Positions 5,207 to 18,481 of a stretch of 64,000 bases of DNA are shown piece by piece. The stretch spans positions 186,001-250,000 of the forward strand of contig JAJCXN010000046.1 of assembly GCA_029263415.1 (NCBI GenBank), read 5' to 3'. This DNA is from Acidobacteriota bacterium (lineage in GTDB: Bacteria; Acidobacteriota; Thermoanaerobaculia; Multivoradales; Multivoraceae). Both the position numbers and the translations under genes were made by a program. Each line of letters starts with the position of its first letter. Position 1 is the first letter of the stretch. Below the pieces are notes generated by a model. That model was not told where the DNA came from, made no database searches, and saw nothing but the letters and a program-made list of their open reading frames with translations.

Positions 5207-6745
5207 TTACTGACCCCACGCCTGACCCAACAGCAACGGCAACCTCGAGCGAGCTGTCTCGCGATCGAGCCCCAGCAGGTGAGCCTTGTCGACTACGGTT
5301 TCAAGGTCCACCGCGTACCACGGGTGGCTGGCCGGGTTGGCCAGCCCAGCCACATTGCGCGGGGCGACTAGGCCCGGCATCTTGCGCGCAAGCAATCCCG
5401 GACTGCCTTCGCTCGCGAAGCCGTGCGCGGCCCGAACGATGTCGCACAACTGATCGTCATCTGCACCGAGCAGCGCACGCCAATGCCAGCCGTCGGCTGG
5501 CGCAGGCAACATCCGCTGTTGAGTCTCGGTAAAACTCGCCGCAGCGAAGTACGCCTGGGCATACCAACCGAGGTCCTCAACGTTGTCCATCACAGAATAG
5601 GCGCCTGCGATCAGCAGCTCAATGTGGTCTGCCTCACGCGCCAGCAACGAACCGTAGCGTTGGAGCTCCACTAGATCAGGTCCGGAGCGACTGTCGCCCA
5701 ACATCTCGCCCAAGCGTTCGACCGCGAGCAGACTCCACGCGATACCAACCGAGAACATCGGGTCATAGAACGCATAGGCCTGAGGCATGAGCGCGAACCG
5801 CTCCCCAACAGCGCCCTCGAGACGCCACTGCATAGACCCGCGCAGTTCGATCGGGCGTGTAAGTTGCGCCTCTGCAAAGCGTTGCTGCAACCGCGGCGAC
5901 CGCCTCAGTAGCAACTCGTGGAGTTCTTCCGGATCAGACCCAGCTAGTTCTACACCGAGCCGCTCGCACCGCTCATGCTCAAGCACCCAGCCACAACTGG
6001 TGAGCGACGGCTGAGCGTGGCGATCATCAAATCGCAGCTCGTAGAGCCATCCCGTATCTACCGAGTGATGCACGGCCGAATGAGCAGGCTTGTAGGGCAT
6101 GCCGTCCATCAACGGTCTCGGCTCCGCTAGACCTTCAAAGTGGCCGAACAGCAAGCTCGAGGCAAATGGCAACCGCGAGCGTTGCGGAAGATCGAGCTGG
6201 GTGGCCAACAACCCGCCCGGACCACTGCCATCGACTACAAAACCCGCCGAAATCTCAACAGCCTCACTGCTCGCATCAACCGCGTGCGCGCTCACGCGGG
6301 TGGCCTCGATCTGGATCGACACGAGATTGGTCCGCTCGAGCAACACCGCTCCGGCCGCCACAGCAGCACGCGCTAGATACTCATCCACGTCGGCGCGCAG
6401 CCACTGCGTATCTGCAACCACATCATTCGGTGAAGCAGCGACCATCACCTCTGTGCTCGCGTGCGCTCCTAAGAATGTGAAGCCGCGTTTCTTGCCGCAG
6501 CGCAGCTCAGGGTGGTGCTCAGTCAATCGGCCCCAGGTCGCTAGGTTCCACACATCCCGCCATCCGTAGCGGCGGGCGATGCGCTCAAGCGCTAGGTTGC
6601 CCAGCGGGGTCGTCGATTCGCCAAGCGAAAATCGCGGGTGAGCGGAGCGCTCCACGATGATCACGCCGAGGCCGTTCTCCACCAACGCTCGAGCAAGCAA
6701 CGAGCTGGCGAAGCCCGAACCGACGATCAGGACATCGGTTCGCAC
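5207..6745 (-). CDS. FAD-dependent oxidoreductase, flavin-dependent-halogenase-like
   Basis: VLIVGSGFASSLLARAL dinucleotide-binding motif, GESTTP, and FYDPMFSVGIAWSLL resembling halogenase DPLFSxGV. The canonical WxWxIP is replaced by GWLYELRF. Confidence 0.82.
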   Translation of the reverse strand: MRTDVLIVGSGFASSLLARALVENGLGVIIVERSAHPRFSLGESTTPLGNLALERIARRYGWRDVWNLATWGRLTEHHPELRCGKKRGFTFLGAHASTEVMVAASPNDVVADTQWLRADVDEYLARAAVAAGAVLLERTNLVSIQIEATRVSAHAVDASSEAVEISAGFVVDGSGPGGLLATQLDLPQRSRLPFASSLLFGHFEGLAEPRPLMDGMPYKPAHSAVHHSVDTGWLYELRFDDRHAQPSLTSCGWVLEHERCERLGVELAGSDPEELHELLLRRSPRLQQRFAEAQLTRPIELRGSMQWRLEGAVGERFALMPQAYAFYDPMFSVGIAWSLLAVERLGEMLGDSRSGPDLVELQRYGSLLAREADHIELLIAGAYSVMDNVEDLGWYAQAYFAAASFTETQQRMLPAPADGWHWRALLGADDDQLCDIVRAAHGFASEGSPGLLARKMPGLVAPRNVAGLANPASHPWYAVDLETVVDKAHLLGLDRETARSRLPLLLGQAWGQ

Positions 6746-7860
6746 GGTGCACCTTGCTGGTCCACTACATCCTCCGCACCTGAGTATTCCTCAGCCCCCA
6801 GCGAACTCATCCGCCGCAGTCGCTCGATCGTCCGATCCGCCTCGCCTTCGCTCAAACAGCCTCGTTCTACCGCCTCGAGATCCCAGGTGTCCAGATGAAC
6901 GTCGAACCGTGGAGCCTGACGTTCGAGTGCCAGCGCTTGCTTGAAAGTCATCTCGAGCTGAGCAAGCGTCGGGGCTTGCCACTCGCCATTCGCCGCCAAG
7001 ATCTCCATTGCGCCGTTACCGGGCCTCACCGGGATCACAGAAGCACAACTGGCGCCGTGATCGCGAGCCCAGCGCAGCGTCTCAAGGCTCCACTGGCGTT
7101 GTTGATCACTAGGCTCAAGACCCGCACCAGCTCCAATCGGCACTCCGAATAAAACAAAAGCCCGCACCGAGGCACCGGCCGAGATCACCAGCTCAAAGGC
7201 GCAAGAAAACTCCTCGAGAGTCGCTCCCTTCATCAGAGCCTCCATAGCCCCAGGGGCGGTGCTTTCAAGGCCCAATGCGACCTCGAGGCGCAGTTCACTC
7301 GCGTAGATCTCCAAGCGGCGGCGACCGGAGGTGCTCAGCAAGATCTTGGGATGACACTCGACCACCACTAGTACATCGTCCGGCAACGGCAGTGACCGAA
7401 CGGCTTCGATCACGGCCGCGTCATCGGCTTCTGGAACGGCACGTTCATCGAAGAAGTTGCTTGCGTTGTAGAGCTTCAAGACCGCGATCGGCGGCGACGG
7501 CTGAGCGGACGACCGAGCCCACTCCCCGAGCTCATCCGTAGCGGCCGCGATCTGCTGCGGAATCGCGCCAAGCGGAGTGCGGGTGAGGATCGTGTGTTGC
7601 CACAAGTCACAAAACAAGCAGGTGAAGGGGCACTCTGCGCCGGTGAGCAACAAGGTCGCCGCGCCAACTTCGTGCCCGCCGGCCCGCTCGGTATCGAAGG
7701 ACACCGCGAGTGGCCGATCAACACGCAACTGTTGCCGTCGCGAGCGCTCCGCATCGCGAGAGCGCAGCCGCCGCACGCTAGACCGACTGCGCTCGACCTT
7801 GGAACTGCTCTCGCCTAAGCCATTGTTGCCGGCCGCGGTCAGATGGAGTCCCAACGGCAC
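6727..7860 (-). CDS. Radical SAM protein
   Basis: LLLTGAECPFTCLFCDLWQ: CxxxCxxC cluster motif. Overlaps the FAD gene start by 19 nt. Confidence 0.88.
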   Translation of the reverse strand: MPLGLHLTAAGNNGLGESSSKVERSRSSVRRLRSRDAERSRRQQLRVDRPLAVSFDTERAGGHEVGAATLLLTGAECPFTCLFCDLWQHTILTRTPLGAIPQQIAAATDELGEWARSSAQPSPPIAVLKLYNASNFFDERAVPEADDAAVIEAVRSLPLPDDVLVVVECHPKILLSTSGRRRLEIYASELRLEVALGLESTAPGAMEALMKGATLEEFSCAFELVISAGASVRAFVLFGVPIGAGAGLEPSDQQRQWSLETLRWARDHGASCASVIPVRPGNGAMEILAANGEWQAPTLAQLEMTFKQALALERQAPRFDVHLDTWDLEAVERGCLSEGEADRTIERLRRMSSLGAEEYSGAEDVVDQQGAPCEPMS

Positions 7861-7915
7861 CGGCAGACGGTGGAAAAGAAGGACATCACGGCGCCCGCTC
7901 CCTGGTCACAGCCCA

Positions 7916-9322
7916 CTAGCGATGCAGCGCGACATAGTGATCGCGGTAGACCTCGGGATCAACCTCGAACAGCTCGGCAAAGCCGCTCTCGCTAACCGCG
8001 CCTTCTTGAAAACGGCGTTTCTCAAATACCGGAAAGTCCACGCCCAACAGCTTCTTCATGCCTCGCCTGACGACTTCACCCTTCAACGCATAGAGCGCAG
8101 CATGCGAGCCGTTGGTCAAGGCGCGAAACGGGATCGCCTCGGCCACACCGACCACGCTTGGCCGGGTGAACGGACTGAACCCAGCGAACCCAAGCGACCG
8201 AGCGGGAGCGAGCGTGCGCACGTACCCACGCGACAGGCCCCCCGAGTAGGTCAGCGAGTGCTTAATCGAATCCACACCCCAGCCCTCTTGATAGAGCATC
8301 AAGTTGTTGACCACGGAGCGAATCGTCAACTCGCTGTTCTCCTCGATCGGGTAATCCTTGAGATTCTCGTCACCGCCGTCGCCGTCCGCCAACAGCCGCC
8401 ACTCGGGGTAGCGCCGGCGCACCGCTTCGAGCAAAGCTAGCCCTACGGTGGCGCACTCCACATCGCGCTGCTTGTAGTCCTCGATCAACTCGACGGCGCG
8501 CATTGGATCCAGAGCGCTGAGGGGCACTGAGATCTCCTCTCCCAGCATCTCAAGACCCGTGGCAGCCAAGAACTCGCGCGCCTGAGAAGCGTCTTCGCCA
8601 CCCTCACCGACACTGAGCGTGAACGCCTTGAGTCTTGCTGGCGACTGCCCGCGCCTTAGCAGCGCGGCATTGAGCGCAACCAGGACCGCACCGGAGTCGA
8701 TCCCACCAGAAAAGCACACGCCGATCGGTTCGCGCGCACCCGCGATTGGCTGTGCGCCATCAACGCCATCCAGCCACAGGTCGATCTCGTTGATCAAAGC
8801 ACCAACATAGCGCTCACCAATCACATCGAGATCGTTGGGCAGCGCTTCTTGCGGTGGATCGAAAAAACGATCGTAGACCGGGTTGGGATCCGGACAACCA
8901 ACCAGGCGCAGGGTAGTCACGTAGTGCGCGGGGACCATGCGTGTGTAGCTCGGATGGAATTGGTCGGCGTAGCCCAGCTGTTCGAGTTGCGCTTCAATCT
9001 CGTCGATCCGCTCAGCGATGATCAACAGAGGACCAGCCTCTTGCTTGGCTAGGAAGTAGCGCAACGGTCGATCCAGACTACGCGCCAAAAGAACCCGCTC
9101 TTCCCTGCGCGCAACCAAGGCGAACGACCCACTGATTTGAGATACCGCGATCGGCGTAGAGCTGGCGAGTAAGGCCTCGGCCTCGGCCGGCGACATATTC
9201 AGGATGTTCTGCGACTCGGCTGGCACCAGATTCATCACAGAGGCGACCGGCTTGTAGCCAAAATCGAAGTCACCAGTCTTTGCCGGAGCGGTCCCTTTGT
9301 CGTTGGCGGTATCTTTGATCAT
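7916..9322 (-). CDS. Asparagine-synthetase-like protein with reduced N-terminal Ntn region
   Basis: PP-loop PIGVCFSGGIDSGAVLVAL; GSFALVARREERVLLARSLDRPLRYF resembles the AsnB N-terminal domain, but no N-terminal nucleophilic Cys2. Confidence 0.85.
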   Translation of the reverse strand: MIKDTANDKGTAPAKTGDFDFGYKPVASVMNLVPAESQNILNMSPAEAEALLASSTPIAVSQISGSFALVARREERVLLARSLDRPLRYFLAKQEAGPLLIIAERIDEIEAQLEQLGYADQFHPSYTRMVPAHYVTTLRLVGCPDPNPVYDRFFDPPQEALPNDLDVIGERYVGALINEIDLWLDGVDGAQPIAGAREPIGVCFSGGIDSGAVLVALNAALLRRGQSPARLKAFTLSVGEGGEDASQAREFLAATGLEMLGEEISVPLSALDPMRAVELIEDYKQRDVECATVGLALLEAVRRRYPEWRLLADGDGGDENLKDYPIEENSELTIRSVVNNLMLYQEGWGVDSIKHSLTYSGGLSRGYVRTLAPARSLGFAGFSPFTRPSVVGVAEAIPFRALTNGSHAALYALKGEVVRRGMKKLLGVDFPVFEKRRFQEGAVSESGFAELFEVDPEVYRDHYVALHR

Positions 9323-9521
9323 TGTTACTCAACTGCTCCGTTTCGTCGCACTCACCGGTTCTACTGGGAACACCCGCCTTCGCGGGTGCCTCGACTGTCG
9401 GCATGATAGCCAATCTCAAGCCAACCAGAGCGTGCGACGCGTGACTCCATCAGCGCAGAGTCTGCAACGATTCGCTGGCATACTCGCCCTGCTTCAACCC
9501 GTGCCAACGATCCGAGGTCGC

Positions 9522-10124
9522 CCAATGATTTCCGCAGCAGCAAAAGAATCCTCACCGCTCCGGCCGATGACTCTCGCCCTGGTCCTCACAGGCCTTCTTT
9601 CGATCACTGCCTGTGGCGGCACAGTCGAACAAGAGATGACCGCTCCAGCACCGAGCAACCCCGACCTCAACCTCACCTTCTCAGCGATTCCGTCGGGATT
9701 TGAGGTTGCACAGAACGATGCCGAGGCAATGCGCCTAGCACCAACGGATCCTGAAGACGCAGCGTCACTCTGGGTCGAAGTGGGCGCAGCGAGCGACTTC
9801 GGCATCTCCATCACCCAGATCGTTAGTGCCCAAAAGGAACTCTTCGAAGCACTCCCTGGTGGAGACTTCGGAGGCAACAACGAACTCAGGACGCTTCACG
9901 GACGCGCCTTCTACTCCCGAGGTCGCTACACACATGACGGTGCTCTAGTCGAAGAGACGCGCGCCTTCCAATTGCATCCAACAGAGAACCGCCTGATCAC
10001 CTTCCATTACCGCTATCCTGCCGCAGAGGATTCGGCTGAACGTGTGCAGCAGCTCCTGTTCTGGCTCGGCGAACTCGAAGGCCCGGCCGCTTCCGAAGCT
10101 GTCGCGACCGAGCCAAGTGACTGA
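9522..10124 (+). CDS. Putative lipoprotein of unknown function
   Basis: LALVLTGLLSITACGG lipobox; start uncertain (ATG 9522 or 9567), the ORF to 9297 is probably over-extended. Confidence 0.7.
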   Translation, partial: PMISAAAKESSPLRPMTLALVLTGLLSITACGGTVEQEMTAPAPSNPDLNLTFSAIPSGFEVAQNDAEAMRLAPTDPEDAASLWVEVGAASDFGISITQIVSAQKELFEALPGGDFGGNNELRTLHGRAFYSRGRYTHDGALVEETRAFQLHPTENRLITFHYRYPAAEDSAERVQQLLFWLGELEGPAASEAVATEPSD

Positions 10125-16036: not shown

Positions 16037-18481
16037 TCAGGGCCTCGGCCGGACCAGCCAACCGAATAGCGCCAGCCCGAGTAGCGTAGCAACAAGACCG
16101 GCGCGCAAATAGGGCGGCGAGAACCGCAACTGCAAGCGCGCAGCGTCACCAGGGATCCAGGCGCCCAGGAAGGCACCGTGGACCTGCGTTCTCTTTATCT
16201 CGAGGCGACGGCCGTCATCGCTGCGCGCTACAACACTCCAACCAGAAGGGCCCGCGAGAGATGTCGCGAGAAGGAATCCCTGCTGCGATCTAGGCGTCGC
16301 CCAGTCAACTCGAAGATCGACGGCTCCAGCGCGAACGACCACCGTCTCAAGAATCGGCTCAACCGAATTCTCCAAAGCACGCACTGACTCGAACCCCTCG
16401 CCAACGACACCCGACACGAAGGCGTGCTGAGCCGAGCCCAGCTGGGGCAGCCGCTGTGCCAAGTCTTGCTCCGAGACAAGCTCCCAGGTGGTCGCGACAA
16501 ACCAGCGATCGAGGGCGCCAAGATTGCGGTAAACCTGATGAGAGCCGCTGTCACTCATCAGTTCCAAGCCACCTCGCCCCGACCCTGATGCGCTCTGCGC
16601 TGGGCCCCACACCTTGACGTTGCCAGTCGAAGAGAAGAGCAGCCCGCCCACACCAAGTGCATCCAGCCATGGCTTGCTCAAGGATGTCACCGGCGCGAAG
16701 TAGTTGGCTGCATCAGGCGAGAATCCAAAGGCAGCCCGGTTGACCCTCAACCACCCAGCCGGCGCCATCGGATTGTGCGATCGAGTTTGATGGAAACCAT
16801 ACACCGTCAGCAAGGAGGGGTAGCCAAGGTACTCGGTGCCCAAAACGCGCTTGGGGAGAACCGCAGGAACAGAATCGGTCGCCTTCGCCAGATCGATGAA
16901 CGTCTCACTGGCCGGATAAAAGCCGGCCGGATCTGCAGTCGGTATCAAACGCCACGCCCAGGGCAATTGAGCAAGCAAGATTACCGCCATCGCGAGCAAG
17001 CACCAACGTTGTCGGTCAGCCGGAGCCGGTTCGCCCACGACCAAGGCGACCCCGATCAAAGCCCAAACAACGATCGATAGCGCTGCGTTCTCAGCACCGC
17101 CTGCAGCAATACTCAAGATGCATAGTGTTGCCACTGCAATCCAGGCCAGGAGGCTCGGCGCCCTGCGTCTCGTCGCATCAAAGCCCAAGCCTGCCGCAAC
17201 GCAAAGAGCGACGGAACCAACCAAGGCAGCGCGCGGGTAGGCCATCGACGAAACAAGCGGCAACGATCTAGCGACCCACAATGCCGGTATGAATCCCGCG
17301 GCCAACAGCCCCGTGACAGCAGCGAAGCCAACCAGAACCAACGAGCGCCTGAGCCACAGACCGCAGACCAGCGCCGAACCAGCTACTGCCCAAAGCCCTG
17401 CGTACACCGAACTCGTTTCCAGCCAGTTGAGTGCGCCGGCGAACGGATCGATAAAGGGCCTGCCAGCCGCGTTTGGGTGGAGTGCCATTGCCAGCCAGCG
17501 ATGGCCGCCATCAACAAACCAACTGCGCGGCGCAAGCTCCATCTGCGACAACGACGGGACCAGCACATCTTCCAGCTCACCGGAACGCTGCGACCCTGCA
17601 ACAGCGCCCAAGAACGGCAGCACGGCGGGAGCCGCCAACAGGAAACCGAGGGCAGCCGCCGAAACCATCGCAAGCACGCAGCGCGACCAGCCGACGCGTT
17701 TCGACCGAAGCGAGGCGGCCGCCAGAACGCCCAAACAACCTCCAGCAAACGCCACTTCGGGATGCCCTGCAAGCAGCAGAAGACAGATCGTCACAGCTGA
17801 CCACCCAACTCGAGCGGGTGTTGGCGCCCGAGCCAAGACGACCAGCGCGAGAGTCGTCCACGGAATCCACGCCACCGCAGCGGTGTGTGTATACAGCGCC
17901 CACGGCATCATCGCGCCGCTCAGAGCTGCCGCAACTCCGGCCAGCGCACCGGAGTGCCAACCACCGCCCAGTCGTCGCACCAACACTGCCACGCCAAGGC
18001 AGCAGATCAACAGATTGAGGGCAATCTTGACCAAGAAGAAGTGCTCGATACTGAATGCCCGCGCGATCCAAGCTACGGGTGAAAGCACACTCGCCTGGGG
18101 ATTGGTCCACAGCGATGACCCGCCCTCGAGTGCATCACTCCAAAGTCCGAACGAGCCACTCTCAATCAGTCGCCGGAACTCCATCTCCCAGGGCAAGAAC
18201 TGGAGAATGGCATCGTTGAGCAGTTCGTAACGTGTGGGATCGTCCAGTGCTTTCGCCCCAGGTACCAGCTGATGGCTCAAGAAGTCGGTCGGAGCGAGTA
18301 GTTGATCGGGCCCCAGCCACGGCAGCAACACGGCCAGCGGCAGGACCACTGACCCAACGATCAGGCGCATCGGGATACGCACTCCAAGCTTGCGTGCAAG
18401 AAACACCAACGTCCAAGCCACGCCAGCCAGCGCAAGAATCAATCCCGCAAGAAGTGTGGCCGTCTGCAGAGCCGCGCTCAC
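16037..18481 (-). CDS. Large multi-pass membrane protein, YfhO-like
   Basis: 814 aa, many hydrophobic segments, GTEYLGYPSLLTVYGFHQTRSHNP region and extracytoplasmic C-terminus; GTG start. Confidence 0.7.
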   Translation of the reverse strand: MSAALQTATLLAGLILALAGVAWTLVFLARKLGVRIPMRLIVGSVVLPLAVLLPWLGPDQLLAPTDFLSHQLVPGAKALDDPTRYELLNDAILQFLPWEMEFRRLIESGSFGLWSDALEGGSSLWTNPQASVLSPVAWIARAFSIEHFFLVKIALNLLICCLGVAVLVRRLGGGWHSGALAGVAAALSGAMMPWALYTHTAAVAWIPWTTLALVVLARAPTPARVGWSAVTICLLLLAGHPEVAFAGGCLGVLAAASLRSKRVGWSRCVLAMVSAAALGFLLAAPAVLPFLGAVAGSQRSGELEDVLVPSLSQMELAPRSWFVDGGHRWLAMALHPNAAGRPFIDPFAGALNWLETSSVYAGLWAVAGSALVCGLWLRRSLVLVGFAAVTGLLAAGFIPALWVARSLPLVSSMAYPRAALVGSVALCVAAGLGFDATRRRAPSLLAWIAVATLCILSIAAGGAENAALSIVVWALIGVALVVGEPAPADRQRWCLLAMAVILLAQLPWAWRLIPTADPAGFYPASETFIDLAKATDSVPAVLPKRVLGTEYLGYPSLLTVYGFHQTRSHNPMAPAGWLRVNRAAFGFSPDAANYFAPVTSLSKPWLDALGVGGLLFSSTGNVKVWGPAQSASGSGRGGLELMSDSGSHQVYRNLGALDRWFVATTWELVSEQDLAQRLPQLGSAQHAFVSGVVGEGFESVRALENSVEPILETVVVRAGAVDLRVDWATPRSQQGFLLATSLAGPSGWSVVARSDDGRRLEIKRTQVHGAFLGAWIPGDAARLQLRFSPPYLRAGLVATLLGLALFGWLVRPRP

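Follow-up and report, generated by a model that had tools for sequence, protein, structure and literature searches.

Within the window analysed here (a stretch of 64,000 nt, positions 186,001-250,000 of contig JAJCXN010000046.1, lying within the 6.9-Mb genome of an Acidobacteriota bacterium), three adjacent minus-strand genes encoding an AsnB-like amide synthetase (ASNB), a radical S-adenosylmethionine (SAM) enzyme (RSAM) and a halogenase- or monooxygenase-type flavoenzyme (FDH) very likely constitute one functional module, which recurs in several bacterial phyla and which likely has a functional link to an exported protein of about 1200 aa with TPR, FG-GAP and UnbV-ASPIC regions (hereafter, the TPR/UnbV protein) that accompanies it in the genomes of its carriers. 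We propose that the trio, as a single operon, would serve a cytoplasmic pathway to a small amide-containing metabolite used together with this exported protein, and judge the proposal as a whole to have about an even chance of being correct. The features on which the account relies are the following:

7916..9322, minus strand: ASNB, beta-lactam-synthetase/AsnB-like ATP-dependent amide synthetase, gene 1 of the operon (from PF00733 and the predicted fold)
6727..7860, minus strand: RSAM, radical SAM enzyme of a RaSEA-like group, GTG start (from TIGR01210 RaSEA)
5207..6745, minus strand: FDH, PltM-like flavin-dependent halogenase/monooxygenase-type flavoenzyme, GTG start (from phmmer and Pfam Trp_halogenase)
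8693..8710, minus strand: PP-loop SGGIDS of ASNB, residues 205-210, ATP pyrophosphatase motif (from conservation)
7609..7632, minus strand: CxxxCxxC of RSAM (C77, C81, C84), 4Fe-4S binding motif (from conservation)
6488..6490, minus strand: K86 of FDH, aligned with the halogenase lysine of PltM (from alignment)
9323..9521, no strand assigned: divergent intergenic region between ASNB and a lipoprotein gene, without a conserved small open reading frame (ORF) (from sequence)

A first-pass annotation, made from the sequence alone, had described three co-directional genes with a 55-nt gap (ASNB-RSAM) and a 19-nt overlap (RSAM-FDH); its coordinates were borne out, all three ORFs (468, 377 and 512 aa for ASNB, RSAM and FDH) being intact, and its three family labels are now backed by Pfam, NCBIfam and PDB sequence searches (Asn_synthase, radical SAM/RaSEA and Trp_halogenase/PltM). 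It had also suggested an uncharacterised biosynthetic or modification module, to be abandoned if the genes did not co-occur in other genomes; the genes do co-occur, co-diverge and keep their order across phyla, which supports the module, while the halogenase of that description is a resemblance only and FDH falls outside the core. Among 99 related genomes, RSAM is present in 54 and ASNB in the same ones, plus one fragment, so that the trio is patchy, with roughly half of the relatives being without it; most carriers keep the order ASNB-RSAM-FDH (family f3 mostly has the ASNB-RSAM pair without FDH beside it), and the close relatives sharing that gene order are labelled mostly Acidobacteriota/Thermoanaerobaculia. 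When 84,980 species genomes were scanned, ASNB loci numbered more than 80; the best 80 of them show 54-69% identity and come from genomes labelled Acidobacteriota, Gemmatimonadota, Planctomycetota, Verrucomicrobiota and Bacteroidota (including Roseithermus), plus metagenome-assembled genomes labelled Gammaproteobacteria; plasmids gave no ASNB match. This five-phylum span is that of ASNB, the full trio being found in four of the named phyla (Acidobacteriota, Gemmatimonadota, Planctomycetota and Bacteroidota) and the Verrucomicrobiota locus that has RSAM (L130) being without FDH. Binning error is not the cause of the spread, since there are isolates among the trio carriers (Mucilaginibacter segetis, Parafilimonas terrae DSM 28286, Roseithermus sacchariphilus and Planctomycetes bacterium CA13).

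In the 79 loci having 3 kb downstream of ASNB, RSAM was found in 71 and FDH in 61, never without RSAM; as FDH is thus missing in part of the family, ASNB and RSAM are to be regarded as the core. The spacing is tight, with median gaps of 7 nt (ASNB-RSAM) and -4 nt (RSAM-FDH) over 71 loci, all three genes on one strand, and pairwise protein distances of the three enzymes correlate at 0.83-0.86 (72 loci), a figure to which shared descent contributes. Co-occurrence, conserved order and such spacing in at least four phyla rule out a chance adjacency of the three genes. DsbA, HolB, Tmk, PilT, PilC and the lipoprotein were considered as further partners and rejected, as they stand beside the trio only in Acidobacteriota relatives, pointing to shared ancestry. 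Two loci of marine Planctomycetaceae without FDH (L098 and L105) have fabZ-like and fabI-like genes, co-directional, directly after RSAM, possibly a hint of an acyl substrate.

The TPR/UnbV protein emerged from clustering the neighbours of the trio. Its gene follows the trio on the opposite strand in Gemmatimonadota, Bacteroidota and one acidobacterium (L126), is convergent with FDH at a distance of 8-60 bp in seven loci (L070, L085, L088, L099, L116, L118 and L122), and is often accompanied by UnbV and UnbU-like (NQR2/RnfD family) genes. Its C-terminal region (447 residues, without a match in Pfam or NCBIfam) served as the probe, and with it the partner was found in 54/54 RSAM genomes versus 19/45 others (99 relatives; Fisher 5e-12), in 18/18 ASNB genomes versus 11/279 others (297 genomes of the Mucilaginibacter phylum; 1e-21) and in all 10 trio genomes versus 72 of the 236 others (246 genomes of the CA13 phylum; 1e-5), each test ignoring kinship. 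In the last of these phyla, Planctomycetota, the partner copies closest to the L099 protein are those of trio genomes (rank test 8e-7). A sharper prediction of the trio from the subtype of its partner was nevertheless rejected, as it holds in Planctomycetota only and fails in Bacteroidota and Acidobacteriota. UnbU as a universal partner was likewise rejected, being found in only 23 of the 99 relatives. Trees of the C-terminal region place the trio-adjacent copies of Gemmatimonadota and most Bacteroidota together, with those of L126 and L130 on other branches, which makes the adjacency unlikely to be a single inherited accident. Visual inspection showed a lipoprotein-type signal in L099, L116 and the second copy of L122, all three from Bacteroidota, and a model of the C-terminal region (predicted local distance difference test, pLDDT, 72) had no PDB fold match below 1e-3. 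The genome of the window has 25 UnbV_ASPIC (PF07593) matches, its trio-carrying relatives 3-47, and many trio-less relatives none; several of the 25 genes are grouped at 283000-330000 of contig C39.

As for the enzymes, beta-lactam and carbapenam synthetases are AsnB-type amide synthetases without a working glutaminase, and it is these that ASNB resembles. All 48 members of its family match PF00733 (Asn_synthase; 1.1e-8 for the window protein), sequence identity being 60-69% in relatives and at least 54% across phyla; the homology within the family begins near residue 24 of the 468, and the PP-loop residues S205, G206, G207, D209 and S210 are invariant (alignments A1, A2 and A5), with DGDGGDE 313-319 and K414 also conserved. 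No glutaminase cysteine of the kind seen in glutamine-hydrolysing asparagine synthetase is conserved in the N-terminal region, the sole invariant cysteine, C143, being internal. The structure prediction that had been recommended was run for ASNB, giving a two-domain, beta-lactam-synthetase-like fold (AF2 model, pLDDT 86.8) whose best PDB match by Foldseek was beta-lactam synthetase 1mbz (E 8e-12, 18% identity); the top five matches, 1mc1 among the best, were all beta-lactam synthetase, followed by asparagine and carbapenam synthetases (1q19 for the latter). Taken together with the shared SGGxDS loop, these features of sequence and model fit an ATP-dependent amide synthetase that would not hydrolyse glutamine, although identity to beta-lactam and carbapenam synthetases is only 12-19% and both the partner enzymes and the surroundings in the genome differ.

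For RSAM, the commonest NCBIfam family is TIGR01210 (RaSEA), matched by 35/35 members (best 1.7e-31; 2e-8 for the window protein), the next match being the tRNA enzyme MnmL/YtqA, while Pfam Radical_SAM matches 33 of the 35 (0.0016 for the window protein, under the Pfam cut-off). The three cysteines of CxxxCxxC are invariant in the 35 sequences and conserved to at least 95% in 86. RaSEA itself turns the ArcS-made lysine adduct into archaeosine (PMC11298593); the RSAM described here shares its cysteine motif and family match and is unlike it in being bacterial and in having an AsnB-type ligase and a flavoenzyme as its partners. Near the trio, neither ArcS nor ArcTGT was recognised, a genome-wide search for ArcS not having been made. 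FDH has as its best sequence matches the phenol-type flavin-dependent halogenases PltM (phmmer, 2e-34) and tetracycline 7-halogenase (5e-27), together with Pfam Trp_halogenase (7e-10); its K86, in the KRGF motif, is invariant in 76/76 family members and aligned with the PltM lysine, which we take to be K87 if the PDB chain has a 20-residue tag. Of the flavin-binding GxGxxG, G9 and G11 are present in 76/76 and G14 in 71/76 members, the window protein having S at position 14.

The first-pass annotation had seen no obvious carrier or precursor-peptide gene next to the trio, and none was found across loci. No conserved small ORF was found upstream, between or downstream of the trio genes in about 70 loci, including the region upstream of ASNB and the space between genes where a search had been recommended; 4-nt overlaps between the genes are frequent and give a small gene no room, and the small-ORF families that do recur resemble antisense shadows of known genes (RSAM, TPR/UnbV, the lipoprotein or pilC). 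Neither a carrier protein nor an assembly-line enzyme (non-ribosomal peptide synthetase, NRPS, or polyketide synthase, PKS) was recognised among the conserved neighbours. Enediyne PKS cassettes include UnbU and UnbV, and several trio loci are reminiscent of them in that UnbV-domain and UnbU-like genes adjoin biosynthetic ones; the UnbV partner of the trio is, however, a TPR-fused protein, and inspection of ORFs within about 10 kb of the trio, without a dedicated PKS search, recognised no enediyne PKS (PKSE) gene. The cassette used for this comparison is E3/E4/E5/E/E10 (PMC5181780).

In the proposed pathway, ASNB would activate a carboxylate with ATP and join it to an amine without ammonia from glutamine, as beta-lactam synthetase does; RSAM would then carry out radical chemistry on the joined product, which, by analogy with ArcS/RaSEA, might break the C-N bond of the amino acid that has been attached, so that a primary amide or amidine-like group stays behind, or might amount to another radical rearrangement; and FDH would halogenate or oxidise the compound, with an aromatic or enolic ring as the probable site, as in the case of PltM. 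The TPR/UnbV protein could be the carrier, the receptor or the site of use of the product. The ArcS/RaSEA-like chemistry, i.e., transfer of an amine from an amino acid and then radical cleavage, is speculative and, resting on an analogy, rather improbable. That the exported TPR/FG-GAP/UnbV-ASPIC (CRTAC1-like) proteins are served by a new compound or covalent cofactor made by the trio is a tentative possibility, with the balance of probability lying on the other side.

Several observations weigh against the small-molecule pathway or its link to the TPR/UnbV protein. The RSAM of the window scores 33.6 bits, far under the RaSEA curated cut-off of 212.15 bits, and, like several other members, is without the C-terminal four-Cys motif of most of them (6727-6880). 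The WxWxIP motif of halogenases is not kept in FDH (GWLYELRF in the window; W-x-[YW]-x-L-[R/P]-F in the family), which, given this alteration, may be a monooxygenase or a dehydrogenase; with the lysine kept but the motif changed, halogenation is no more than plausible, and the earlier label "halogenase-like" is sound as regards PltM being the nearest match and the lysine being invariant, yet describes a likeness of sequence only, to enzymes from which FDH also differs in occurring without a PKS/NRPS cluster. FDH is absent from 18 and RSAM from 8 of the 79 loci. Furthermore, the genome of the window has its two TPR/UnbV genes on contigs C39 and C44, unlinked to the trio, which is why this clue could not be seen in the first-pass annotation, and the co-occurrence statistics ignore phylogeny. 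The relatedness left out of the Fisher tests, the abundance of UnbV genes in the genome of the window and the fact that partner similarity to L099 neither separates trio genomes nor predicts the trio in Acidobacteriota and Bacteroidota would all suit an explanation by shared ecology or lineage only (large-genome free-living bacteria), with the trio making an unrelated metabolite; such an explanation is quite improbable in view of the convergent adjacency in both Gemmatimonadota and Bacteroidota, the UnbU-UnbV-TPR/UnbV block adjoining the trio in several further loci, the separate branches of the L126 and L130 proteins and the 100% co-occurrence in three phyla.

This explanation and the three others weighed here are all ranked below the small-molecule pathway. 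It is unlikely, but the least so of the four, that the enzymes are a maturase set modifying side chains of the TPR/UnbV protein or of another UnbV protein before export. Among NCBIfam families, FDH does match QhpG (7e-11) and LodB (1e-8), which together with GoxB are the flavoproteins used for comparison; the formation of cysteine tryptophylquinone is reported to require a flavoprotein that dihydroxylates a peptidyl residue (PMC7876137); and the TPR/UnbV protein, besides being the strict genomic partner and a convergent neighbour, has an invariant cysteine in a GSC motif of its C-terminal region. That motif, however, is equally conserved in TPR/UnbV proteins of trio-less genomes (L168, L169, L171 and L172), FDH is closer to PltM than to LodB or QhpG, modification would have to precede the export of a protein that looks exported, and the known maturation of quinone cofactors offers no clear role for an amide synthetase. 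We give little credence to a modification of nucleobases, e.g., of tRNA 7-deazaguanine, as by ArcS and RaSEA in Archaea, even with the uniform RaSEA match of RSAM, the tRNA enzyme next in line, a homologue of the tRNA-queuosine alpha-mannosyltransferase adjoining the trio in L096 (13821-14927; Pfam QTMAN_N) and, in L189 (18369-19286), a gene that BLAST shows to be homologous to it, some 6 kb away from the trio: such homologues were near the trio in only 2 of the 112 loci searched, the patchiness of the trio speaks against it, FDH has no precedent in the pathway and the UnbV link would be left unexplained. Little probability also attaches to a cluster of the ribosomally synthesised and post-translationally modified peptide (RiPP) type whose precursor peptide is encoded elsewhere in the genome; AsnB-like, radical SAM and halogenase-type enzymes each occur in RiPP clusters, but the lack of a conserved small ORF and the 4-nt overlaps argue otherwise, as does a weak SPASM-family match in only 1 of the 35 RSAM members.

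No description of the trio was found in the open-access literature searched, most subscription journals being outside its scope; the enzymes belong to known families and it is their biological role that is possibly new. A trio so conserved and widespread, yet undescribed, suggests a compound that has been missed since neither a PKS nor an NRPS nor a precursor peptide marks its cluster, and the strict association with a single type of UnbV/ASPIC protein gives a way into the function of this exported family in bacteria. Should the trio make a compound or cofactor for TPR/UnbV proteins, it would be, to our knowledge, the first dedicated biosynthetic partner of this large multi-phylum family, and the question is directly testable, as cultured isolates carry the trio.

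Regarding the rest of the window, no match to a sigma-70-type promoter was seen in the intergenic region 9323-9521, and an ORF of 814 aa at 16037-18481 (minus strand) had no Pfam match at 1e-5. Divergent from ASNB, at 9522-10124 (plus strand), lies a small lipoprotein gene whose signal ends LLSITAC|G, and which in near relatives (family f1), though not in other phyla, occupies the same spot next to the trio.

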